Shown here piece by piece: positions 4,733-26,085 of a stretch of 27,961 bases of DNA. A program made the position numbers and the translations under genes. Positions within the stretch are counted from its first letter, which is position 1; every line of letters starts with the position of its first letter. Source of the DNA: a virus; the IMG/VR virus record IMGVR_UViG_3300009030_000014, positions 1 through 27,961 of that record. The stretch is one strand, 5' to 3'. The notes under the pieces were generated by a model, which had not been told where the DNA came from, did not search any database, and saw only the letters and a list, made by a program, of their open reading frames with translations.

Positions 4733-6217
4733 TCAGATCTTGATTGCGAACCAGATGAGGTCGGTCATCGTGGGGTTACCGTCGTCGTTCGCCGCAGCAC
4801 TGTCGAAGGTGTTCTTCACGACCATCGTGGCACCGGCTGTGCGAATCTCGAAGCTGAAGTTGGCGTGAATGTCTCGCAGCTCACCAGCATCGTTGAACCG
4901 ACCGGCCCACGTCTGCTTCGCATCAGTGAGGCCGCCACGCAGCCACAGGTTCACGCCCCAGTTGGGGCGCGGTGCATGGTCAGTCTGGTGTGCCATCACC
5001 ACGAAGAAGTCCGGCGCGAAGCCGGGCGTGATCACGACCTCCTCGCCCAGTGCGGTCGGGAAGTCGTCTTCGAGAACCACACCCCTCGACACTTGGAACG
5101 TCACACCGTCGACGTAGGCCTTGGTCGCTGCGTCAGTGCCGATGGAAGGCTCACCGAGGAGGGTGATCTTCTGGAGGTTCATGGGAACGTCGCCGCCCAC
5201 CAGCCGGGCGAACAGGTCGAGTGAGAGGCCCGTGGTGACGTTGACCAGCGCCGTCAGCGCGTCGGCCGGCAGAGTCTGCGACGAGTTGATCAGGTGCTGG
5301 AGCCCAGCCACCGGCAGAGTGGGTTCGCCCAAGGCGTCGAACACCATGATCCGGCCGGCGTCGCCGGTGGAGACTTGGATATGCCCCTCGTTGATGACGT
5401 TGTCGGCAAGCTGGTCGGGGTCGTTGATGAACGCATCGGGCAGGACGCCCAGTACCGTGCCGGTGAAGATGCGGACGTGGATGATCGCGTTGTTGGGCGG
5501 CGGGAGCGTGAACGACAGCACATCGTTGCCGTCACCGAAGGACGGGTAATCGGAGTCCTCTTCGTTCAGGATCTCGTAGTCGCCGCTGTCTGAACGCTGG
5601 ATCACAGCGTTGATCCAGACGGTCGGCATGGCGGTCTTGAGGCCGATCGCACCGGACATCAGGAACTCGGTGGACGTACCGTTGGCCGTGAACGTCAGGA
5701 CCGTGGGGTCGGTGAGCTGGGCGATCTGCACGTCGGCCAACAGGGCGTTGAGCTGACCGAGCGTCACCCAGCCCGTGACTGAGACTGCCGGCAAGCAGTT
5801 CTCGCTTGGCAGGCCCTCGCCATCCCACGCCGTCCTCGCATCGTTGCGAGTCAGTGCATCGATGACGGAGTTCTCGATCTCCTGGTCAATCATGGTCAGA
5901 CGGTTGGTGTCGTTGTCGAGGTTCCGCTCGGAGAGCGTGGTGCCTGAGACGTAGTCGATCTGGCGTGTGCGGGTGGTGAACCGCTTGATCAGGATGTTGC
6001 CGATGTCGACGGCCGGGAACGAGCCGGCGAGGAACGTCACCAGCTTGGTCGAGCGGACGATCGAGTAGTCGGTGCCTTCGAGCTGCCGGGTGAACACACC
6101 ATCGACGGGGTTCACCACGTCCACCTGCACCGCCGAGAAGCTGCCGGCCAGCTCGAAGGTGAACTGGAACGGTCCCGCTGTCCCGTCACCGTTGAGTAGA
6201 TTCTGTGTGATCGCCAT
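4733..6217 (-). CDS. Tail fibre protein with T7 gp17-like N-terminal domain
   Basis: A 494-residue protein that should attach to the tail and contact the host surface. The start is ATG 6217-6215, overlapping the giant upstream gene's TAA by one base (TAATG). Residues 1-125 match the T7 gp17-type N-terminal adaptor in pattern: strands, then DYSIVRSTKLVTF (50-62), ILIKRFT (75-81), then DYVSGTTLSERNLD (88-101) leading into a helix. Residues 173-252 repeat the same strand order, suggesting a duplicated adaptor fold. DAATKAYVD at 362-370 is a phrase seen in many phage fibres. The C-terminal part (about 380-494) is a beta-rich tip of no family I recognise. T7 gp17 is about 550 residues, so the length is comparable. 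Confidence 0.88.
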   Translation of the reverse strand: MAITQNLLNGDGTAGPFQFTFELAGSFSAVQVDVVNPVDGVFTRQLEGTDYSIVRSTKLVTFLAGSFPAVDIGNILIKRFTTRTRQIDYVSGTTLSERNLDNDTNRLTMIDQEIENSVIDALTRNDARTAWDGEGLPSENCLPAVSVTGWVTLGQLNALLADVQIAQLTDPTVLTFTANGTSTEFLMSGAIGLKTAMPTVWINAVIQRSDSGDYEILNEEDSDYPSFGDGNDVLSFTLPPPNNAIIHVRIFTGTVLGVLPDAFINDPDQLADNVINEGHIQVSTGDAGRIMVFDALGEPTLPVAGLQHLINSSQTLPADALTALVNVTTGLSLDLFARLVGGDVPMNLQKITLLGEPSIGTDAATKAYVDGVTFQVSRGVVLEDDFPTALGEEVVITPGFAPDFFVVMAHQTDHAPRPNWGVNLWLRGGLTDAKQTWAGRFNDAGELRDIHANFSFEIRTAGATMVVKNTFDSAAANDDGNPTMTDLIWFAIKI

Positions 6218-9200
6218 TAGATGTCCCCTACGGGTGCAGTCGTGGGTTCTCCGAACATGAACTCTCTCACTGGATCAGGCAGGATGTCCTGCGCCGGCTC
6301 CAAGACTCTTCTCGCTCGATAGTACGGCATGAGCGTGGGGTCACCAACCAGCTTGAGTGCGCCAGTGGACAGCTCGTACATCGTCAGTCCCATGTGCAGC
6401 GCGAACTCTTCGTACTCATCTTCGCTCAACGCCTCGAACATCTTCGCGATCTCGGCCATCGTGTCGCGAGCCATGTCGTTGATCGCCTCGAAGACGATCG
6501 GCTCCATGATGCTGCCTCGCTGGAACCCTCCTCGCGTGGCCCTGACCAAGCCCACGGCCGCATCACCGACCGCAGGGAACATGCCGAACGTGTCTTCGAT
6601 CGCCCGCCAGTTCGCCCTGTAGAACGCCTTCAGGAGACGCTCCTTCCGCAGCCGCTCGTTCGGATCGTCTCCGAATGCTTGCGCGATCAACGTACCGAGC
6701 AGCTCGGAGCCTACTTCGAGGATGAAGTTGGTGGCGTAGGCCGACCAGATGATGTTGCCCAACACGCCCATCGACGCCTTGGCTGCCTTCGCTGGTGAGG
6801 TGTGGTACGCCTGATAGATCTGGTTGTAGGACTTCATCGGGTCGGTCGTGAACAGGAAGAAGTACCTCCAGAACGACTCCCGTGTGTTCATCACAACCGC
6901 GCCGGCGTCGAGCGGCGAGCTGGTGTTCTGGCTGTTCCGCACGGCGAAGCCTGCGCGGAGGGAGGTGTACTTCATCAGCTCCTTGTCCTTGAGCCCCTTC
7001 TGCTCGCCCTCCCACTTGTAGCCCTCCCATGCGATGCGGGCCGGGATGGCGTCGAACCAGTCGAGGAACTTGATGGACCGGAGGATGCGGTTCCACGACT
7101 TGCCGAGGCCCTTGAAGTCACCATGGACGCCGGCGTTGAGGAACGCCTTCAGCCCCTGCGTCATCGCGATGTTGTCGAGCCCATCAAGGCCGCTGCCGGC
7201 GACCGGGGAGTAGCGGCTCATGGTGTCGCCGCTGTACCTCGAGTAGAAGAAGCCGCTGTTGTTCTTCATCTCCTTGAGTGAGCCGGGCCGGATGCGGGCG
7301 ATGCCCATGGCGAACGTCTTGGTCGGCATCTCGTTCCAGAGCTTCGAGACGCCACCCATCTGCCGGATATAGGTGCCGGGGTTGAGAAGGATGTAGCTGG
7401 TCGCCACGCCAGAGTTCCACACCTGCATCATGTTCGTGCCGCCGGGGATCGTGTCACGCTGGACGAGGCTGCTCTCGATGAGCATCGTCTGGAGTGTCGT
7501 GTACAGCTTCTTGCCGCTGGTGCGGTTGATGGCGTCGGCCACGTTCTGGTCGAGCAGCACCATCGAGGCGTCACGGGTGGCCTCGGCCATGTGGATGATC
7601 TTCAGGGCCTGATCGATGTGAGAGATGTAACTGGCGAGCAGCCCGTTCAACACGAACGGCGCGCTGGCGTCCTCCTCACGCTCCTTGGTGAAGCCCATGT
7701 TCTCCAAGAACGCCTGCCGGATCGCGCTGAACCCGCCCTCGCGGTACGCCTTGGCGAGGCCGGCGCTGTCGGTCGCAGCTCGGTCAACGGCGGTCGGGAA
7801 GTAGCCGGGGATCGTCGTGGGCTCGGCGCCCTTGAGTCGCATCAGCACCTCGAAGAGCCGGGGTCGAATGCTCGTCTCCAGCCGGGCCTTGATCGCCCTG
7901 ACGAGGTCGCCGTACTTCGGCTCGAGGTCGGCTTTGATCGCCTCGACCTCCTCCATGGTGATCACCAGCTTCAGACGCTGGCCCATGTTCCGCAGCTTGA
8001 TCGCACGGCCCTTGGCGATCTTCGCCAGCGTGTCGGTGTCCAGCGCGAGGAACTGCAACGCCTCGTCCAGCGGGATCTGGAACGTCCTGCCCTGAAGGGT
8101 GACATCCACGAACGTGGTCGAGGTCTTGCCGAACGTCCCCATCAACTGCTGGAAGGCAAAGCTCAGGTTGCGGAACCCAGCCTCCTGCACGAACTTCTCA
8201 AGCAGTGCCGTCTCGTCACGCAGGTCGGAGTTGTACTCCTCCTCCTGTTCCTTCATCCGCCTGGAGATCAGGCGGGTCAGGACACCGTCGCCCTTGCCCC
8301 TGCGCTCGGCCCTGCGGGTCGCTGACTCAACGTCCTTGTACAGCTCCCCCGCTGCGACCCGCCTCGACCATGACCTCTCACGATCCGCGAACTGCGTCTC
8401 CTTCCGCTTCTGCCTGACCTCCTTCTTGAACGTCTGGGTCTTCGGATCCCAGCCGAGGTGGGACATGATCAGACCCACGTCTGAGTCCTTGGTGTCCTTC
8501 TTGTCCTTGCTCGCCGCGCGCTTCTCGGCGCGGCGGTCGGTGACACGCTCTTGGATGAACTCGGCCGTCAGGCTGGCGACCGACGCCGCGTTGTCGTAGC
8601 CCTCCGGGTCGTCGAACGCCCGCTTGCGCCGGCCGAACTCGCCACTGGCCTTGGGCAGGAACAGCGCCGGCTCCGCAGTCTGCCGCCACTGCCGGACCTG
8701 CGCACGGTCCTCTTCCTTGAACACCGTGTGGGCGGCCTTGTCTGCCGCTCGCACCGCCTTGTGATACTTCTCGACGGCGTCGTTGAACCGGACCTGAGCC
8801 CCCAGCCGGTCGATCTTCTTCAGGGCCCGGCCGATCGCCTGACGAGTGGACGCCTCGACCAGATCACGGTTGAACGTGCCGACCATGTTCTTGGGCAGGC
8901 CGCTGGTCTGGATCACCCGCAGCATCGTGTCCTTGATGAACTGGAGATCCTCGGCCTTGTTCCTCTCCTTCTGCGTGGCGGCCAGCGTCTCCTGCCGACC
9001 GGCGGCGCGCACCGCATCCCGGCGAGCCTTCTCGGACGCCATGAGCCGAGCCCTCTCGATCTGGGCCTGCGAGCGGATCAGGGCGACGGCGGCCAGCGTG
9101 GCTTGCTCAGGGGTCCGAGCCTTGAGCGCGCGGTTCATGGCAGCGACCTCGTTGGCCGACGCCTTGCCCGACTCCTTGCCGAAGATGCTCTCGACGATGC

Positions 9201-12200
9201 CCACGACCCGCTGTGTGGCCGCCTGAACGCCTTGGATCTTGCCCGCCTTCCGACCCTTCTCCTCGGAGCGGAGCGTCCTACGGAGGTGCTTGGCCTCCTC
9301 AGGGCTCATCTTGGCACCGGGTGCGCTACGTTTGCGCTGCGTTCGCGCTACAGGCGGATCAACGAACAGGGCCTGCTGCTTCCCGGTCACCGGCTGGCGA
9401 CCAGAGAGCAGGGCCATCCCAGCGGACAGGCTCTTGACCGGCAGCGCCTCGAGCGCCTCGATGGAGACACTGATCTTCCTGGTGTTTGTCTCGCTGACGT
9501 TGATGACGGCTTGCGTCACCAGCTCGCCGGCATCTTGGGATGAGTACCCGGCGTCGATCAGCCGCTGGCGGGCGGCGGTGAGTTCGATGTCGATGCCGCC
9601 GTCGCGTCGTCGGAGGGCTCCGACGATTCCATCTTCAACGGCTTCATCCAGCTCGCTGGCTTGATCACCTCGTCCACCCTCGAGCGCTCGTCTTCCTCGT
9701 CCATCGATTCGTCCCCCGCCGACAAAGATTGCTGTCTCAGCATCAGTGCGTCCTCTGGCGGCGTCGGATTCCTGAACGTCTCGCTTCGCGGCTGTGCCAT
9801 AATCCTCACTCGCTGTCTGAGCCTTGGAGACTCCGAATGCGTTCCAGAACGACTGCTCATTGTACCAGAGGATCGCCTGAATGTCCGACATCTGGAGGTT
9901 GCGGAGCTGCGGCACGTTGTGTTCGCGGCCGTAGTCCTTGAGCCTCTCCCGCACCTCCTTGAACACATCGCGGATCGCCGCCCGCTCGGCACCTGTGCCG
10001 GGGCTGGCGATCACGCCCTCGTTAGCATTCTTCATGGACTCGACGGCCTTCTTCAGATCCGGGTCCACGTCCTGACCATTGCGTGACTGGATCTGCTGGT
10101 CTGCCCTGATCGCCCACTGGATGGCGGTATTCTCGCTGGCAACCACGTCCTTCCACGCGAACTGCGTGGGCTCCTCGTTGAACAGATCCTCGCCCAGCTC
10201 CCTGATCCGGCCGTGCGCCTTGGGCAGGGCCTTCTTCTTCTGTGCCGGCGTCAGCATCAGCGTCCCGGTCAGCCGGTTCCACATCCGGGCGAACCACACG
10301 TCCATGGTGAGCAGGTCGTGGATGCCCATCATGTTCTGGAAGAACGCACCGAGCTTGGGGCCGAGGTAGATCGCCCGTCTGTTGACCAGTGTGATGGCCT
10401 CATCGGACACCGCATGCTTCTTGCCGATGAGCGGATCCTGCCGCAGCTCACCGACCGACTGCTTCTCAAGCAGCCATGCGATGAACGGCGCCGGCGTACC
10501 GCTGCCGTCCTTGAACTTGTCCAGCTCCATCCATTCGTTGAGCCTGTGCATCTCGGCTCGCATCGGCCAGCCCCGTCTTGACCACAGGAAGCCGTTCAGT
10601 TCGTGATCCTGCAACGGCAGGGAGCCTCGCATCACCTTCGTGCGCCGGGTGAGCGGGATGAGATCCTTGTCCACGTCAGACGGTTCGTGGTTGACGGTCG
10701 GGAAGGAGCCGGTGCCCCACTCCGGGGCCTCGACCTGCTTGCCCTTGTGCGTGATCGTGATCTTGTCTGCCGTCTCGCTCCACTTCCCGTAGATCCTCTT
10801 GGCGGCTTGGTAGTTCCTGCGGACGACGTTGCCGTTGGAGGTGATCGCGATCAGCAGCTTGAAGATGGCGGCGTGTGACTGGCTGACCTCCAGCTCAGGG
10901 AAGTCCGCTGCCGCCCAGTGGATCATCTCCTTGATCGACTTGTCGTACCACCCGGAGCCGTTGTAAATGCCGGAGGCGAAGCCCAGTCGGATCTCTTCCA
11001 TCAGGCTCTGGACGATCCGCTCTCGCTGTTTGCCCGTGTACGACCGCTTGCCCTTGGCGTTGTACTTGATGACGTGGCCGAGCTTGCGAGCCCGCTTGTC
11101 CAGCGCTCGAGCGATGTCGGCGCCCTTGAACAGACCACGGTGTCCCGTCGCGGTCATGTCCAACTCTTCCCGCCCGGTCATCAGGATCACCAGGGGAGAG
11201 ACGATGTTGTCCTCGCCCTCGAACTGCTTCTTGATCAGGGCGCGTGACGCGATGATGTCGTCGGCCTTGGTCAGCTTCTCGCTGACGCGGATCACCTTCT
11301 TCGAGGCAGTTCGCCCACCCTCGATCGCCTTCCGCATCTCGGTGGCCCAGTAGATCGCGAGGGCCTCGTCGTTCTTCGCATCCCGGTGGGTGATCGCACC
11401 CTCCGGTGTATCGATCATCTTGGCAGCGGCGCGCAGGCCATCTGCCATGCCACGTTGGCCGACGCCATGCCCATGCGTGACCTTGCTCATGGGTGGGACC
11501 ACCTCCCACAACACCGTCGTGAACTCCTTCGCGAGGTTCACCAGTGCCCGTCGCGCAGCGTCGCTCGGTACGGCGGCGAACTGGACGCCGATCGTCCGAC
11601 CTCCCGCGTGGGTCACAAAGGAGGGCTGGATCCGCACTGCTCCGGTGGCCCGCAGGAAGTCGATGACCCCCGTCTCTTTGAAGCTGAGAGTGTCGAAGCC
11701 GAACCTGCCCACCAGCGTGCTGTGCATCGTGAATTGCTGGCCCGGGCGCGTGGACTTGGGCGACCGCTTCGTGTTGGCCCGGTCAATGATCCGCCCGTCG
11801 CTCAACACCAGCATGCCCTCGGTGCCATCCTTGGTCGTCTTGAACTGCTTGGTGATCTCCGCGTTGGTCGGCCCGGTCTGGATCAGATCGACATCCACCC
11901 ACGGCTTGGCGATGAGGCCGGACTCCTCGAACTGCTTGCGGGTCATCGACCGGATGGACCGCATGCCGGCGGCGAGGATCTCCGAGTGTGGCTCCGGCCC
12001 GCGCAGGTCGAAGTTCGGGATCTCGTCCAGAATCGCCATCATCTCGTTCTCGGCCTGAGTCTGCTCGAAGAAGCTGTCGGCCAGCTCCTTGATCGCGATC
12101 ATCACCTCCACGTCGGGGTGATCCTTGCCGACCGCATCGATCAGATCGAAGATCTTCTCGCGGTACAGCTCGAACGTGCGCATGTCGCGGTTCAGGATCT

Positions 12201-15200
12201 GGTCGTAGAAGCCGGTCGTCTCCATCCGCTGGTCGACGTACACCGACACCGCCTCGTTCTGTCCGAGCGGCGTCGCGAACCAGAGCATGAACTTCGCCCA
12301 GTCCACCTTCCCCGGATGCAGTCGCTTGTAGTAGTCGAGCCCGGCGAGCTGGAGTCCGTTGGAGTCGACCGCCACGATCCGCTGGTGGAACCTGATCCAC
12401 GCCTGCCGTCGCGTGGACTTCAGGAAGTGGACCCACTCATGGGTGAACGTCTGCCGGATGGCCGCTTCGCTGCTCTCATCGATGCTGATCAGGATCGATT
12501 GCGACACCGGGTCGTGCATGCCGAGCATGCCCTTGGCACCCGTGACGAACTCCAGCGTGACGCCGAGCTTCGCCATGCCCTCCGCCAGCAGCGCATTGGC
12601 CGAACCAGCCTCCGGCTCCACCACCTCCATCCTGCTGTCGTGTCCGCGTGTGATCAGGAACGCACGGGCTCGAAGGATGCGGCCCTCCTGCGAGTCGGCG
12701 TTCTTGTACTCCGGGTTCTCTGTGATGGCACTGAGCGCGAAGAGCTGGTTGAATGAGAAGAAGGTGGCGAAGAACTCGGTGATGTTGCCGGTGATCTGGT
12801 GGTCTTCATCGAGTCGGGCTTGGGCGTCGGCTTCTCGTTCCTCATCGCTCTCGATCAGGGGGGCGCCGGCGAGCAACTCCCGCTTCCGTTCCGGCGTCAG
12901 CTTCTCGGTCGAGATGATCTCTTCAGGCGCGATGTCACGCCACAGTGTGACGAACCCCTCAGTAGGCTGGCCCTCTTCAGTCTCGATGTACCCCTCGAAG
13001 CCATGCTCCTTGGCAACCGCGATGAACACCCCGTAGTCAAACTCCCCGCCAGTCCGCTCCCGCATCTCGGCGCGAACCGCCGCCCAATCGGGGTGGCGCT
13101 TCGACAGCAGGTTGAAGTTGCCCTCGATGACACTCAAGAAGTTCGTCTGAGACAGCACGACGAACTCACCGCGCCGACCAGAGCGGTACAGATTGATCCC
13201 CGCTTGGGCGAGGTCAACAACGCCGTCTTTGATTATTCGGGCGCGTTCTCGTCCTGCTGCGGGTCCGGTTGCAGAGAATCGGACGAAGAGTCCTTCTGCA
13301 CTCCGGTCTTCGCGGGTGAGACGAACGAGCCGGGTAGTCCGGCCAGATGGTTCCTGATCGCTCGGGCGTCCTGCTCCGATGTCGGATCTGGCGTCTCTGG
13401 CTTCTCTGGCGTCTCTGTCGGCATCGCTCTCCAGTGTACCACCGCCGACCTCAACAATCTCGGCCTCGCCCTGCTGTGCGGCATCACGGCGCAGTGCCTC
13501 CTCGCCCTGCGGTGCCTCATCCCCCACCACCTGGAGAGCGTTGTCGGGTTGCGGGACCACCGGCTCCTGCGGCAGAGCGAATGTGATCTCACCCTCCTGC
13601 CGTGCGATCCGCATCAGGGAGGACAGCATCCGGCGGGCCTGCGCGATCTTCGGGTCGTTGAGTGCCAGAGGCTTGCCGTTGAACGACTGCGTCTGGATGA
13701 TGTCTTGGAGCTTCTGGGCCTCCTCCTCCCGCTCCTCTCTGGGCCGCGCCGCCACCTCGTCGTGTGACAACTCGCCCGATGCAGGCTTCATGGGGTCGGT
13801 CAGGTCGAGGAACTGCTGCTCTTCGAGGGTGTTCGGGCCGCCTCGCTCGAGCAGGAACTCCCGCTCGATGACATCGGCCGGGTCGCGGCCACTCTCGGCA
13901 ATCGCCTGAGCCCGCTCCTGTAGCTGCGTCGCGTCCACCAGCACGTCACCGCGCCGGCCGCCGGCAGTGACGATCGACTGGAGGTCTTGACGAGCCACGT
14001 CGAACCTGCCGCCCGGCTTGTTCGCCTTCGCGAGGCCCGCTTCGTGGATGAGGGCAGCACCGCCCGCGATCGCTTGCGCCCCGACGCTCGCTCCTGCGGT
14101 AATCCCCATGCCACCGACCACCGGGATCGAGAAGGCCAGTGCCTCGGCCGCCCAGTTGCGCCAGTCGCTGCTCCGCTCGATCAGCTCGGCCCATGTGACC
14201 TCGCCGGTGGCGAGCCGGAGGATGTCACCGAACCGCTCCTCGAAGATCTCGCCGGCAATGCCGTTGAAGCCCGCGTCAGCCATGGCGTCGCGGAACCGCT
14301 GCGGCCCGGCGCCGCCGCCCGCCCTGCCGAGCTTGCGGACAAACGAGTTCACCATCGCAGACTTCAGTCCGAACTTCGCCGCCGCGCGAGTCATCATGCC
14401 TGCGCCGACGCCGAGCAGCGGACCCGTCCGCTCAGAGAAGTACTCGATGTAGCCGTCGATCGCCGCGCCCCACAGCGCCTCGAACTCGTCGTCGGCAGAG
14501 TCGAAGTCGAGAAGCAACGCGCCCGCTTGGTCGACTGTGAAGCCCGGCAGCATCCGGTGGAGCGCATTCACCTTGATGCCGATGATGTCGGCCGCCGGCA
14601 ACTGAATGGCAGCACCGGCGGCAACCCCGCCGAGCGTCACGAAGCCCGACTTCAAGCTGATGTTCGTCAACGGAATCCGCATCTTGCCCGTGAGCCCCTT
14701 GAGGACTCGTTCCATCGACTTCCGGCCAGCCGCCCGACCGAGGGCGAACGGCTTCTTTGTCACCAAGAAGTCCAGCATCAGGGGCACTGAGCTGTAGAGG
14801 ATCTTCGCGCCCTGCACTCCGAAGTTCGCGTTCTGCTGGTGGCCGTCAATGATGAAGGCCGTGAGCAGGAGCCGGTCGAGCTGATCGTCGGTGCCATGCT
14901 CGTACCGCTCGCCCGCGAGCAGGAGCGCTTCGACCTGACTCTTGTTGAAGAGGTCGCTGACGTAAGGGATGAAGTCCTCGACCGCCACCTGTAGCGCACC
15001 CCGGTCGCCGGTGACCCGCTCCCACCACTGACTGAGCGACTCGATGCGGGGGTCGCTGGTGATCAGGTTGCCCATCGCCACACGTTGCTCGTCGTCGCTC
15101 AGGCTTATGAAGCCGTTGACGAACTCGTCGGTCCAGCCCCGGTTCGTTTGCAGGGTCTTGATTTTGTCCACGACCAAGTCCGGGTGGCGGGAATGCGTGA

Positions 15201-15477
15201 TCGCGGCCGCGCGGTCGATCGTGATCATCGGGGGAGGCTCAACGAAGCCACCCCTCAGCGCGCGGAAGGCTTGGGTGATGCCGGAGGGAATCCCCAGTGA
15301 GCCGGAGCCGCTGGGTGGATCGCGCAGCACCGCAAACGGTTCGGGCAGCTTCGGCGGTTCCACGATCTCCGGCGACACGAAGTCCCCGGGGTCGTTGACG
15401 GGACCGCTGCCGAAGTCGAGCCGATCCAGCTCTGCCTGTTCCAGAGGATCCAGAGGTTCTGTCAGAGGATCAGGCAT
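6217..15477 (-). CDS. Giant internal virion (ejection) protein in gp16 position, polyvalent-type, with zinc-peptidase motif
   Basis: A 3086-residue protein starting at ATG 15477-15475 and overlapping the upstream stop by eight bases. By position it corresponds to T7 gp16, which enters the host with the DNA, but it is more than twice as long. Hydrophobic stretches occur near residues 275-300, 445-480 and 2904-2935 and could cross membranes. Residues 1013-1017 are HEWVH, with a possible third zinc ligand E1075, a zincin-type peptidase signature. Residues about 710-860 end in GFEGYIE...EGFVTLWRDIAPEEIIS, faintly like ADP-ribosyltransferase domains of polyvalent phage proteins (weak). Residues 1500-1880 include LTMDVWFARMWNRLTG and SDIQAILWYNEQ, phrases I associate with other giant phage proteins. 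Residues 2050-2430 are highly charged and probably coiled coil. No transglycosylase ESxF...LMQ pattern, as in T7 gp16, was found. Sub-functions remain inference. Confidence 0.9.
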   Translation of the reverse strand: MPDPLTEPLDPLEQAELDRLDFGSGPVNDPGDFVSPEIVEPPKLPEPFAVLRDPPSGSGSLGIPSGITQAFRALRGGFVEPPPMITIDRAAAITHSRHPDLVVDKIKTLQTNRGWTDEFVNGFISLSDDEQRVAMGNLITSDPRIESLSQWWERVTGDRGALQVAVEDFIPYVSDLFNKSQVEALLLAGERYEHGTDDQLDRLLLTAFIIDGHQQNANFGVQGAKILYSSVPLMLDFLVTKKPFALGRAAGRKSMERVLKGLTGKMRIPLTNISLKSGFVTLGGVAAGAAIQLPAADIIGIKVNALHRMLPGFTVDQAGALLLDFDSADDEFEALWGAAIDGYIEYFSERTGPLLGVGAGMMTRAAAKFGLKSAMVNSFVRKLGRAGGGAGPQRFRDAMADAGFNGIAGEIFEERFGDILRLATGEVTWAELIERSSDWRNWAAEALAFSIPVVGGMGITAGASVGAQAIAGGAALIHEAGLAKANKPGGRFDVARQDLQSIVTAGGRRGDVLVDATQLQERAQAIAESGRDPADVIEREFLLERGGPNTLEEQQFLDLTDPMKPASGELSHDEVAARPREEREEEAQKLQDIIQTQSFNGKPLALNDPKIAQARRMLSSLMRIARQEGEITFALPQEPVVPQPDNALQVVGDEAPQGEEALRRDAAQQGEAEIVEVGGGTLESDADRDAREARDARSDIGAGRPSDQEPSGRTTRLVRLTREDRSAEGLFVRFSATGPAAGRERARIIKDGVVDLAQAGINLYRSGRRGEFVVLSQTNFLSVIEGNFNLLSKRHPDWAAVRAEMRERTGGEFDYGVFIAVAKEHGFEGYIETEEGQPTEGFVTLWRDIAPEEIISTEKLTPERKRELLAGAPLIESDEEREADAQARLDEDHQITGNITEFFATFFSFNQLFALSAITENPEYKNADSQEGRILRARAFLITRGHDSRMEVVEPEAGSANALLAEGMAKLGVTLEFVTGAKGMLGMHDPVSQSILISIDESSEAAIRQTFTHEWVHFLKSTRRQAWIRFHQRIVAVDSNGLQLAGLDYYKRLHPGKVDWAKFMLWFATPLGQNEAVSVYVDQRMETTGFYDQILNRDMRTFELYREKIFDLIDAVGKDHPDVEVMIAIKELADSFFEQTQAENEMMAILDEIPNFDLRGPEPHSEILAAGMRSIRSMTRKQFEESGLIAKPWVDVDLIQTGPTNAEITKQFKTTKDGTEGMLVLSDGRIIDRANTKRSPKSTRPGQQFTMHSTLVGRFGFDTLSFKETGVIDFLRATGAVRIQPSFVTHAGGRTIGVQFAAVPSDAARRALVNLAKEFTTVLWEVVPPMSKVTHGHGVGQRGMADGLRAAAKMIDTPEGAITHRDAKNDEALAIYWATEMRKAIEGGRTASKKVIRVSEKLTKADDIIASRALIKKQFEGEDNIVSPLVILMTGREELDMTATGHRGLFKGADIARALDKRARKLGHVIKYNAKGKRSYTGKQRERIVQSLMEEIRLGFASGIYNGSGWYDKSIKEMIHWAAADFPELEVSQSHAAIFKLLIAITSNGNVVRRNYQAAKRIYGKWSETADKITITHKGKQVEAPEWGTGSFPTVNHEPSDVDKDLIPLTRRTKVMRGSLPLQDHELNGFLWSRRGWPMRAEMHRLNEWMELDKFKDGSGTPAPFIAWLLEKQSVGELRQDPLIGKKHAVSDEAITLVNRRAIYLGPKLGAFFQNMMGIHDLLTMDVWFARMWNRLTGTLMLTPAQKKKALPKAHGRIRELGEDLFNEEPTQFAWKDVVASENTAIQWAIRADQQIQSRNGQDVDPDLKKAVESMKNANEGVIASPGTGAERAAIRDVFKEVRERLKDYGREHNVPQLRNLQMSDIQAILWYNEQSFWNAFGVSKAQTASEDYGTAAKRDVQESDAARGRTDAETAIFVGGGRIDGRGRRALEGGRGDQASELDEAVEDGIVGALRRRDGGIDIELTAARQRLIDAGYSSQDAGELVTQAVINVSETNTRKISVSIEALEALPVKSLSAGMALLSGRQPVTGKQQALFVDPPVARTQRKRSAPGAKMSPEEAKHLRRTLRSEEKGRKAGKIQGVQAATQRVVGIVESIFGKESGKASANEVAAMNRALKARTPEQATLAAVALIRSQAQIERARLMASEKARRDAVRAAGRQETLAATQKERNKAEDLQFIKDTMLRVIQTSGLPKNMVGTFNRDLVEASTRQAIGRALKKIDRLGAQVRFNDAVEKYHKAVRAADKAAHTVFKEEDRAQVRQWRQTAEPALFLPKASGEFGRRKRAFDDPEGYDNAASVASLTAEFIQERVTDRRAEKRAASKDKKDTKDSDVGLIMSHLGWDPKTQTFKKEVRQKRKETQFADRERSWSRRVAAGELYKDVESATRRAERRGKGDGVLTRLISRRMKEQEEEYNSDLRDETALLEKFVQEAGFRNLSFAFQQLMGTFGKTSTTFVDVTLQGRTFQIPLDEALQFLALDTDTLAKIAKGRAIKLRNMGQRLKLVITMEEVEAIKADLEPKYGDLVRAIKARLETSIRPRLFEVLMRLKGAEPTTIPGYFPTAVDRAATDSAGLAKAYREGGFSAIRQAFLENMGFTKEREEDASAPFVLNGLLASYISHIDQALKIIHMAEATRDASMVLLDQNVADAINRTSGKKLYTTLQTMLIESSLVQRDTIPGGTNMMQVWNSGVATSYILLNPGTYIRQMGGVSKLWNEMPTKTFAMGIARIRPGSLKEMKNNSGFFYSRYSGDTMSRYSPVAGSGLDGLDNIAMTQGLKAFLNAGVHGDFKGLGKSWNRILRSIKFLDWFDAIPARIAWEGYKWEGEQKGLKDKELMKYTSLRAGFAVRNSQNTSSPLDAGAVVMNTRESFWRYFFLFTTDPMKSYNQIYQAYHTSPAKAAKASMGVLGNIIWSAYATNFILEVGSELLGTLIAQAFGDDPNERLRKERLLKAFYRANWRAIEDTFGMFPAVGDAAVGLVRATRGGFQRGSIMEPIVFEAINDMARDTMAEIAKMFEALSEDEYEEFALHMGLTMYELSTGALKLVGDPTLMPYYRARRVLEPAQDILPDPVREFMFGEPTTAPVGDI

Positions 15478-24549: not shown

Positions 24550-26085
24550 TTACGTCAACTGTGGGGACGGGGGAGCCGGCTGGGGCGGCTGTGGCCCACC
24601 GGCGGTCATTATTGTCTCCTCGCGCTTGCCGCCACCCTGTGGGGCCGCTGCGGCCATCTGGGCCATCAACATCTCCTGCTCGCTCTTCTGGCTGTACATG
24701 CCCTCGGTCTTCACCAGCATGCCCTCACCGATCCGGTCGAGGATCTCGATGCCGTGCGCCTTCACCGACTGGTCGAGCTGCATCACCATCGGCAGGATCT
24801 GGAGCGTCATTCTCGCCAGCGACCGCTGCTTGTCCAGTGCGTTGATGCCCGTGGTGACCATGACGCGGACGAGCGGGCCGAGGAGCTGGTTGTCGGTCCC
24901 GCTGAACAGCGGGGAGATCAGGTCTTGCAGGCGGCTCTCCGAGCGGAGCAGTGGCTTCTGGCCCGTCTCCTCGTAGGTGCCGAGAAGGTCGGCCGTCTCG
25001 CTGTTGATCTCGTCCACGATCTCGAGCGCGGCCGTGGCCGACATGTCCGGCGAGAGCGGCCGATCCTTCAGGCCCTTGGCGAAGGCATTCCCCGCCTCTT
25101 GCTTGTCGTCGTTGCGCATCGCTGCGACCCAGCCCCAGTCCTGAATCGCACGGCCGGTGTCCGGCCAGATGATGTCGCCTTCCTGCATGATGACCGGGTC
25201 GCCGGCCTTGGTCTTCATGAGCTTCTTCGGGTCGTCGGCCAGCGACGAGCCCTCGCGGATGCCGATCGGCTTCCAGCTCGCGAACGCCATGGCCTGCGCG
25301 AGCGAGGCCTCCGCGTGATCGATCTGGGCCAGCAGACGCAGGTACTGCCATGCGTAGCCGACCGAATAGTGGCCGATGTCTGGGATCATCGGGACCAGAA
25401 CGCCGTACCAGACGGGATCCTCGTCCTCGACACGCTCGGCTGCTGTGTTCTCCCCGACCTGCCGCCAGATCTCGTTGTCCTCGTAGTTGATGAGCGTCCA
25501 GCTCTCCAGCACGTTGTCGAAGTCCTCGGCAACCTGCACCGCCATCGGGCTCGGCTCCTGCTCTTCGTGGATCGCCAGCAGGATGACCTCGCCGTTCTCG
25601 TTGCGGCGAACTCCGATCGAGCGGAGCGGGTAGACCGTCAGGCCTTCGGGCGTGTTCCGCCAAGCGTTATTGCCCTCGACCAGATTGCGGTGAACGAGTG
25701 CGCTGAACCGTGGCCTGGTGTTCTTCTGGGCGAGCGAACCGATGAGGTTGTTGCTGCGAGCCCGAAGCCTCGCGCGGAGCGAGCCCACCAGCTCGGCCTC
25801 AAGCTCGCCGACGCCGACCAGTCGGTCCAGCTCCTGCCAGATCTCTGGCGGGAAGTCGATCGCACCCCACAGGACGCCGGGTGGCATGATGATCTTCATG
25901 ATCGACGACGTAAGCGAACGCAGGTTGCTGATGCCCTCGCTCGTCCACGGTCGGTCGGTGATCTCGACGCCGCGCGGCGCAAGCGTCGGGTCGAACAGGC
26001 GGGCGGCCTCCTCCGCGTAACTGAGGAAGCGGTCGCGCTCACCCGTCAGGTGGCTGTAGATGAGTTCCGGCTTGGGGTCTGCCAT
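24550..26085 (-). CDS. Portal (head-tail connector) protein, T7 gp8-like
   Basis: A 511-residue protein (T7 gp8 is about 536) starting at ATG 26085-26083, exactly adjacent to the previous TGA, with only a weak ribosome binding site. It is probably translated by coupling. The opening helical region carries the PWTSEGISNLRSLTSSIMKI phrase (about 46-65) and MPPGVLW (67-73), which resemble T7-family connectors (a short linker followed by a loop that ends in Pro-Gly). A long helix and wing region follow, and the tail is Met/Gln-rich and then Pro-rich (last 30 residues). The dodecameric ring is the DNA entry and exit channel and the docking site for terminase and tail tubular protein A. Identification is confident from order, length and pattern. 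Confidence 0.92.
   Translation of the reverse strand: MADPKPELIYSHLTGERDRFLSYAEEAARLFDPTLAPRGVEITDRPWTSEGISNLRSLTSSIMKIIMPPGVLWGAIDFPPEIWQELDRLVGVGELEAELVGSLRARLRARSNNLIGSLAQKNTRPRFSALVHRNLVEGNNAWRNTPEGLTVYPLRSIGVRRNENGEVILLAIHEEQEPSPMAVQVAEDFDNVLESWTLINYEDNEIWRQVGENTAAERVEDEDPVWYGVLVPMIPDIGHYSVGYAWQYLRLLAQIDHAEASLAQAMAFASWKPIGIREGSSLADDPKKLMKTKAGDPVIMQEGDIIWPDTGRAIQDWGWVAAMRNDDKQEAGNAFAKGLKDRPLSPDMSATAALEIVDEINSETADLLGTYEETGQKPLLRSESRLQDLISPLFSGTDNQLLGPLVRVMVTTGINALDKQRSLARMTLQILPMVMQLDQSVKAHGIEILDRIGEGMLVKTEGMYSQKSEQEMLMAQMAAAAPQGGGKREETIMTAGGPQPPQPAPPSPQLT

Follow-up and report, generated by a model that had tools for sequence, protein, structure and literature searches.

The window analyzed here is an entire virus record (IMGVR_UViG_3300009030_000014) of 27,961 bases. 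Since the record is classed as linear, the genome is possibly incomplete. On the minus strand at 6217-15477, the window encodes a giant protein of 3086 residues (341 kDa) in the slot that phage T7 gives to gp16, and the central domain of this giant (residues 1496-1905; 9763-10992, minus strand) looks like an HhH-GPD fold of the Ogg2 type in predicted models, with a candidate catalytic lysine and aspartate that are invariant among its relatives. We tentatively propose, with confidence that falls just short of an even call, that the domain is a virion-delivered base-excision enzyme, a predicted N-glycosylase/apurinic-apyrimidinic (AP) lyase most likely acting on incoming phage DNA. The glycosylase-like central domain is what is new; giant, probably polyvalent, ejection-slot podovirus proteins are a kind already known.

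Predicted fold of the central domain

AlphaFold2 models were built for the central domain of the window giant and for that of a divergent relative (locus L087), both with the same 47 sequences, and the fold discussed here is therefore a computed rather than a solved one. The model of the window domain has a mean predicted local distance difference test score (pLDDT) of 74.5, with model residues 81-152 being poor, and that of the L087 domain has a mean pLDDT of 89.8. When the window model was compared with known structures using VIA-align (157 chains aligned), the best entry was MjaOgg (3knt; Z 10.5, 183 residues aligned to a chain of 206, 4.2 Å), followed by SsOgg (3fhg; Z 9.4), and the next entry had a Z of 4.2. 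The same Ogg2 structure was ranked first for the L087 model (964 chains aligned; Z 12.2, 191 residues aligned to a chain of 205, 3.6 Å), ahead of six DUF2419 queuosine-salvage entries (Z 9.0-9.6) and two AGOG 8-oxoguanine glycosylases (Z 8.5 and 7.2), with the next entry at 4.7. All nine entries above Z 5 for this model are enzymes that act on the bond joining base and sugar. The original prediction had listed an unknown central domain and had proposed structure prediction as a way of telling an enzymatic fold from plain structural helices. Its predicted fold is DNA-glycosylase-like in both models, and for this one well-modeled domain an outcome of structural helices only was not seen.

The predicted catalytic residues are Lys1708 (10354-10356, minus strand) and Asp1726 (10300-10302, minus strand). 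Both are shared without exception by 83 of 83 copies of the domain, as are Trp1728, Arg1731, Gln1867, Trp1871 and Glu1874, and in relatives the lysine aligns with that of Ogg2. The two residues are spaced 18 apart, as in MjaOgg, and the family motif G-P-K plus T-M-D-x-W-x-x-R is placed at the G-Y-K plus I-I-D-R-H-x-x-R of MjaOgg. The 3knt chain, which represents the catalytic K129Q form, carries Q where the catalytic lysine would be expected. In both models, the lysine begins a helix that comes after a short helix and the aspartate immediately precedes the next helix, a placement expected for HhH-GPD proteins. A candidate catalytic lysine and aspartate are thus found at the HhH and GPD places, as judged by alignment and invariance. 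In the HhH-GPD fold, such a lysine/aspartate pair predicts a bifunctional glycosylase that excises the base and nicks the AP site.

Sequence links to Ogg2 and DUF7178

A hidden Markov model (HMM) built from three solved Ogg2 sequences reported 45 of the 47 domain copies, with a mean score of 0.55 bits and a best score of 10.7 bits. Seven of the 47, at 6.9-10.7 bits, exceed all controls (maximum 6.2 bits in 280 slices that come from the same giants but lie outside the domain, and 4.9 bits in 940 shuffles), and the three alignments printed in full pair lysine with lysine and aspartate with aspartate. The central domain is also homologous to DUF7178 (PF23802; hhalign E 1.8e-7 for a single pair). 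DUF7178 matches 14 of the 47 copies at E up to 1, the best at 1.1e-5 and the window copy at 0.0098, where the window copy scores 16.3 bits and so lies under the Pfam gathering score of 27 bits. When DUF7178 was itself compared with Ogg2 using hhalign, the score was 23.2 versus at most 18.2 in 100 shuffles (23.0 versus 16.7 with the other match setting), and a combined profile scored 18.1 versus 15.7 in shuffles with the second match setting; column shuffles erase helix periodicity, so the excess of DUF7178 for Ogg2 supports the connection weakly.

DUF7178-type proteins are held by 22 phage records. Among the 20 listed, the protein of PhinkBoden is annotated as a glycosylase, that of WilliamBoone as an N-glycosylase, one as a portal protein and 17 as hypothetical. 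The single DUF7178 match in 299 genomes of one phylum lies within a frame of about 3600 residues. A stand-alone DUF7178-like protein of Tunturiibacter phage Tunturi_3 (L131:2902-3498) bears the label portal protein, probably a misannotation, and adjoins a gene annotated as an ATP-dependent DNA ligase; the two are perhaps a repair pair.

Several results weigh against an Ogg2-like assignment. With the Ogg2 HMM, 40 of the 47 copies stay within the range of the controls and the window copy ranks below the 15 best. The profile of the giants scores an insignificant 18.6 against Ogg2 in hhalign, with one of 10 shuffles scoring higher, and PDB profile searches found nothing. The Ogg2 profile PF22175 has no match in the window record, for which reason we file the domain as Ogg2-like and not as a member of Ogg2; this profile likewise matched none of five genomes holding relatives and none of 194 genomes of one phylum. 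Foldseek by itself gave no significant PDB match for either model: Ogg2 chains appeared at E of about 9 for the window model, and no Ogg2 chain was among the best 50 of 241 matches listed for the L087 model. Mostly helical models may reach a Z of 13-14 in VIA-align without a clear relative. Finally, the conservation of the domain, which contains all 38 invariant columns of a full-length alignment of 15 hand-picked giants (the window giant not included), is overstated since the loci were found through that domain.

Spread of the domain among giant phage proteins

A four-copy alignment of the domain was used for pattern searches of IMG/VR and of genome contigs. In IMG/VR, 311 of 378 pattern-matching stretches encode relatives of the domain, the best 80 of which were kept, and five of 47 pattern matches in genome contigs do so. 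The 85 loci studied (L043-L125, L005 and L006) contain 85 frames with the domain at E up to 1e-5. A coverage filter was passed by 82 copies, which were reduced to 46 at 85% identity and joined by the window copy to give the 47 sequences used above. Domain-bearing frames that are unbroken by a contig end range from 885 to 3966 residues. A BFVD fold search with the L087 model produced 15 matches at E up to 0.001; the ten that are named all come from uncultured Caudovirales and five of them are called polyvalent or ART-PolyVal-like, which indicates spread and not function.

Three of 50,697 phage records were matched in a tblastn search, namely those of Limnohabitans phage DC33, ctEw122 and ctQRb9, and queries with three other copies of the domain recovered the same three records. 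Their giants occupy the same slot and are 3125, 2792 and 3209 residues long, respectively. Residues ~1400-1990 of the window giant match these giants at 24-30% identity by BLAST. C-terminal similarity to them is insignificant (E 0.026 and 0.26), and residues 1-1480 and the last 427 residues have no tblastn match in the phage collection at E up to 0.1. Residues 2542-2692 (7402-7854, minus strand) show weak similarity to two other giants, L095 and L101, by phmmer (E about 3e-4). All three phage giants carry the Pfam families ART-PolyVal and LPD22 above cut-off. Among 15 further giants, at Pfam E up to 0.001, ART-PolyVal is found in nine and LPD22 in eight (that of L095 just under the curated cut-off), and in three relatives the ADP-ribosyltransferase (ART) precedes the glycosylase-like domain in the chain. 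LPD22 and ART-PolyVal are marks of polyvalent proteins (PMC5512222). Giants in the gp16 slot are thus a known kind and not unique to the window phage, and the window giant is probably a gp16-slot ejection protein of a podovirus, of the polyvalent kind; its slot is what points to injection.

Several of these records carry unexpected labels or content. The giants of ctEw122 (L003:9276-17654) and ctQRb9 (L004:16911-26540) are annotated as crystallin beta/gamma motif-containing proteins despite their LPD22 and ART-PolyVal matches. Phage DC33 (L002, PQ492659.1) is filed under Inoviridae, although its genome measures 39 kb and includes a podovirus-type module, and transmission electron microscopy in its paper (PMC12195039) shows a short tail; the words glycosylase, polyvalent and mass spectrometry are absent from the main text of that paper. 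A Polynucleobacter contig (L122:4502-14956) encodes a 3485-residue giant with an inorganic pyrophosphatase, ART-PolyVal and a PLxRFG C-terminal domain in addition to the glycosylase-like domain.

Proposed function and alternatives

Under the proposal that we favor, the giant would be one long polypeptide that is packed in the head and enters the cell together with the DNA or slightly before it. Its core, the conserved part, would be a lysine/aspartate N-glycosylase of the Ogg2 type of HhH-GPD fold, likely with AP-lyase activity, which would flip out and excise a damaged, probably oxidized, base from the entering phage genome. As a result, lesions that the DNA had picked up before infection would not stall entry, transcription and first replication. 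The repair would be completed by the host's AP endonuclease, polymerase I and ligase, and cleavage by the zincin segment may divide the giant into functional parts. Action on the incoming genome is favored because the carrier occupies the ejection slot and because the domain is common to giants whose other domains vary. Put more broadly, and with a shade less confidence, phages of a large class, many of them freshwater or marine, may package a base-excision enzyme in the ejection apparatus, delivered before phage gene expression, that either mends the entering genome or strips chosen host bases. Our literature searches found no description of such a virion-borne glycosylase. In a roseophage, a pyrimidine-dimer glycosylase gene is reported to lie apart from the structural module (PMC11288001).

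The main rival is offense or counter-defense, in which an injected N-glycosylase would attack host DNA, a defense-related modified base, a nucleoside or a tRNA base before phage gene expression while phage DNA is spared. We consider this unlikely, though it deserves the most weight among the alternatives. The giants of relatives carry further conflict-type domains (ART-PolyVal and InPase), and the DUF2419 enzymes come second in the fold-match ranking of the L087 model. Bacteria, for their part, deploy DNA glycosylases against phages, as with Brig1 in the phage-bacterium arms race (PMC11078745). However, conservation across the 15 aligned giants is highest in the domain (38 of 38 invariant columns, in a sample picked by the domain), which sets it apart from a typical arms-race domain.

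Less probable again is that the domain only binds or bends DNA, with a glycosylase fold that serves as a clamp or ratchet during ejection and excises no base. HhH folds do bind DNA in many proteins. A DNA-binding, genome-clamping role is also described for T7 gp16 (PMC8954989). This reading sits poorly with the invariance, in all 83 copies, of residues relevant to catalysis and not merely to DNA contacts. Least probable, by a little, is that the resemblance in fold is a chance one between helical structures and that the domain is a structural or enzymatic module of another kind, a view that draws on the non-significant Foldseek and profile-profile results and on the VIA-align caution for helical models but is opposed by the agreement of two models, by the nine of nine base-sugar enzymes above Z 5 for the L087 model, by a motif in register in the independent Ogg2 HMM test, and by SEA-type annotators having arrived at glycosylase for two homologues.

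The first minutes of infection are a stage for which the tasks of ejected phage proteins are largely unsettled; if the domain is an active glycosylase, phages import DNA repair, or the stripping of bases, in the form of ready-made protein. The same result would assign a role to DUF7178/phrog_3842, which both Pfam and PHROGs carry as unknown, and to the core that many phage giants have in common. The cultured Limnohabitans phage DC33 has a version of the domain, at about residues 895-1290 of its giant, which makes the proposal directly testable.

Reading frame and gene order

The frame of the giant begins with an ATG at 15477, ends with a stop codon at 6217-6219 and contains no internal stop, while in 100 mononucleotide shuffles of the window stop-free runs extend to 399 codons at most. 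Its guanine-cytosine content by codon position (0.63/0.44/0.85) is close to the values of six neighboring genes. The sequence AAGGAG lies 5 bases upstream of the ATG. This start shares an 8-base overlap with the end of the preceding gene, and the start of the fiber gene falls within the stop codon of the giant. The flanking genes follow the T7 order by family matches, and this is what places the giant at gp16. All are on the minus strand: the head-tail connector (24550-26085; phrog_449), the major head protein (21650-22588; phrog_267), a gp11-like tail protein (20960-21583; phrog_446), a gp12-like nozzle (18717-20960; PF25675 at 8.3e-33 and phrog_457 at 9.5e-43), a gp14-slot open reading frame (ORF; 17797-19056) whose true start is uncertain since it overlaps the nozzle gene, a gp15-slot ORF of 776 residues (15470-17800) with no confident family in Pfam, PHROGs and NCBIfam scans, the giant, and the tail fiber (4733-6217; phrog_2710 and others), with the terminase large subunit (741-2561; phrog_38 at 1.7e-38) beyond. 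The original prediction of an uninterrupted 3086-codon frame in the gp16 slot of a T7-like gene order, which left the strand unstated, is therefore borne out. Over the matched parts, the connector shares just 21-26% identity with those of pelagiphages and cyanophages, which puts the phage far from named relatives.

Ten ORFs upstream of giants were scanned at five other loci. The phrog_376 nozzle was found at four of the five (L086, L065, L108 and L087), and the L068 ORF matches a different virion protein. At L108 (5601-7439) and L087 (3153-4814), the gp15-slot ORF matches endolysin families, as if the wall-cutting role of T7 gp16 had shifted one gene upstream; at L086 and L065 it has no family match.

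Other segments of the giant

The window giant has no Pfam domain above cut-off and two weak Pfam matches below it, one of which is to LPD14 at residues 393-443 (14149-14301, minus strand; 14.8 bits versus a cut-off of 27). Nothing was found in NCBIfam, PHROGs gave one weak match (phrog_3842, E 0.0045), and phmmer against the PDB returned a lone irrelevant row at E 2.7. IMG/VR pattern scans with the giant and with the head protein, which used few exact peptide patterns and would reach close relatives only, confirmed no relative, and megablast of 24.9 kb gave no match.

Two effector segments had been proposed for the giant in addition to its central domain. The zinc peptidase has modest support at HEWVH (residues 1013-1017; 12427-12441, minus strand), a zincin-like metallopeptidase candidate. 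With a profile made from L063, L074 and L122, this segment scores 9.4 bits, compared with 4.4 bits in 27 slices from elsewhere in the window protein and 3.5 bits in 500 shuffles; among 856 HExxH-free slices from other giants, two score higher (11.5 and 12.5 bits), and the match spans about 56 residues that do not include the third zinc ligand. The possible ADP-ribosyltransferase-like part of the window protein is unsupported, scoring 2.5 bits versus up to 3.2 bits in 22 slices taken elsewhere in that protein, though 200 shuffles reach at most 1.7 bits. Residues 1181-1480 (11038-11937), just before the glycosylase-like domain, have no Pfam or PHROGs match, and three relatives carry ART-PolyVal there. 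The view of the giant as a polyvalent ejection protein consequently holds for its slot, its size and its likeness to same-slot giants with ART-PolyVal and LPD22 elsewhere, and is unsupported as to an ADP-ribosyltransferase in the window protein itself.

Comparison with known systems

T7 gp16 (internal virion protein D) lies in the same slot as the window giant, after the gp15-place gene and before the fiber. It has 1318 residues (PMC8954989), compared with 3086 for the window giant, which has a glycosylase-like core and in which Pfam, PHROGs and NCBIfam scans gave no family match for an N-terminal lytic transglycosylase. With phage polyvalent proteins (PMC5512222), the giant shares huge size, a place among virion genes and a zincin candidate; the ART-PolyVal and LPD22 marks are borne by the same-slot giants of relatives and were not detected in the window protein. 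Polyvalent proteins combine several unrelated activities per chain; in the window giant, the candidates for these are a glycosylase-like fold and a modest zincin match. The words glycosylase and gp16 are not present in the main text of Iyer et al. 2017.

The giants of DC33, ctEw122 and ctQRb9 have the same slot and the same central domain as the window giant and differ in their N-terminal LPD22 and ART, which are undetected in it. DUF7178/phrog_3842 proteins are homologous to the window domain and have the same K...D-x-W motif; they include stand-alone phage proteins and one copy in the 3600-residue frame. The window copy lies below the Pfam cut-off.

Compared with the Ogg2 enzymes MjaOgg and SsOgg, the window domain is embedded in a giant and has no significant sequence-profile match to them. 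It also has an additional helical segment after the aspartate and ahead of the conserved tryptophan. Ogg2 enzymes recognize 8-oxoguanine with a C-terminal lysine, which the window domain lacks, being internal to the giant, and its substrate may differ from theirs. What it shares with them is the match in predicted fold, a lysine/aspartate pair with equal spacing and a conserved tryptophan near the end of the domain.

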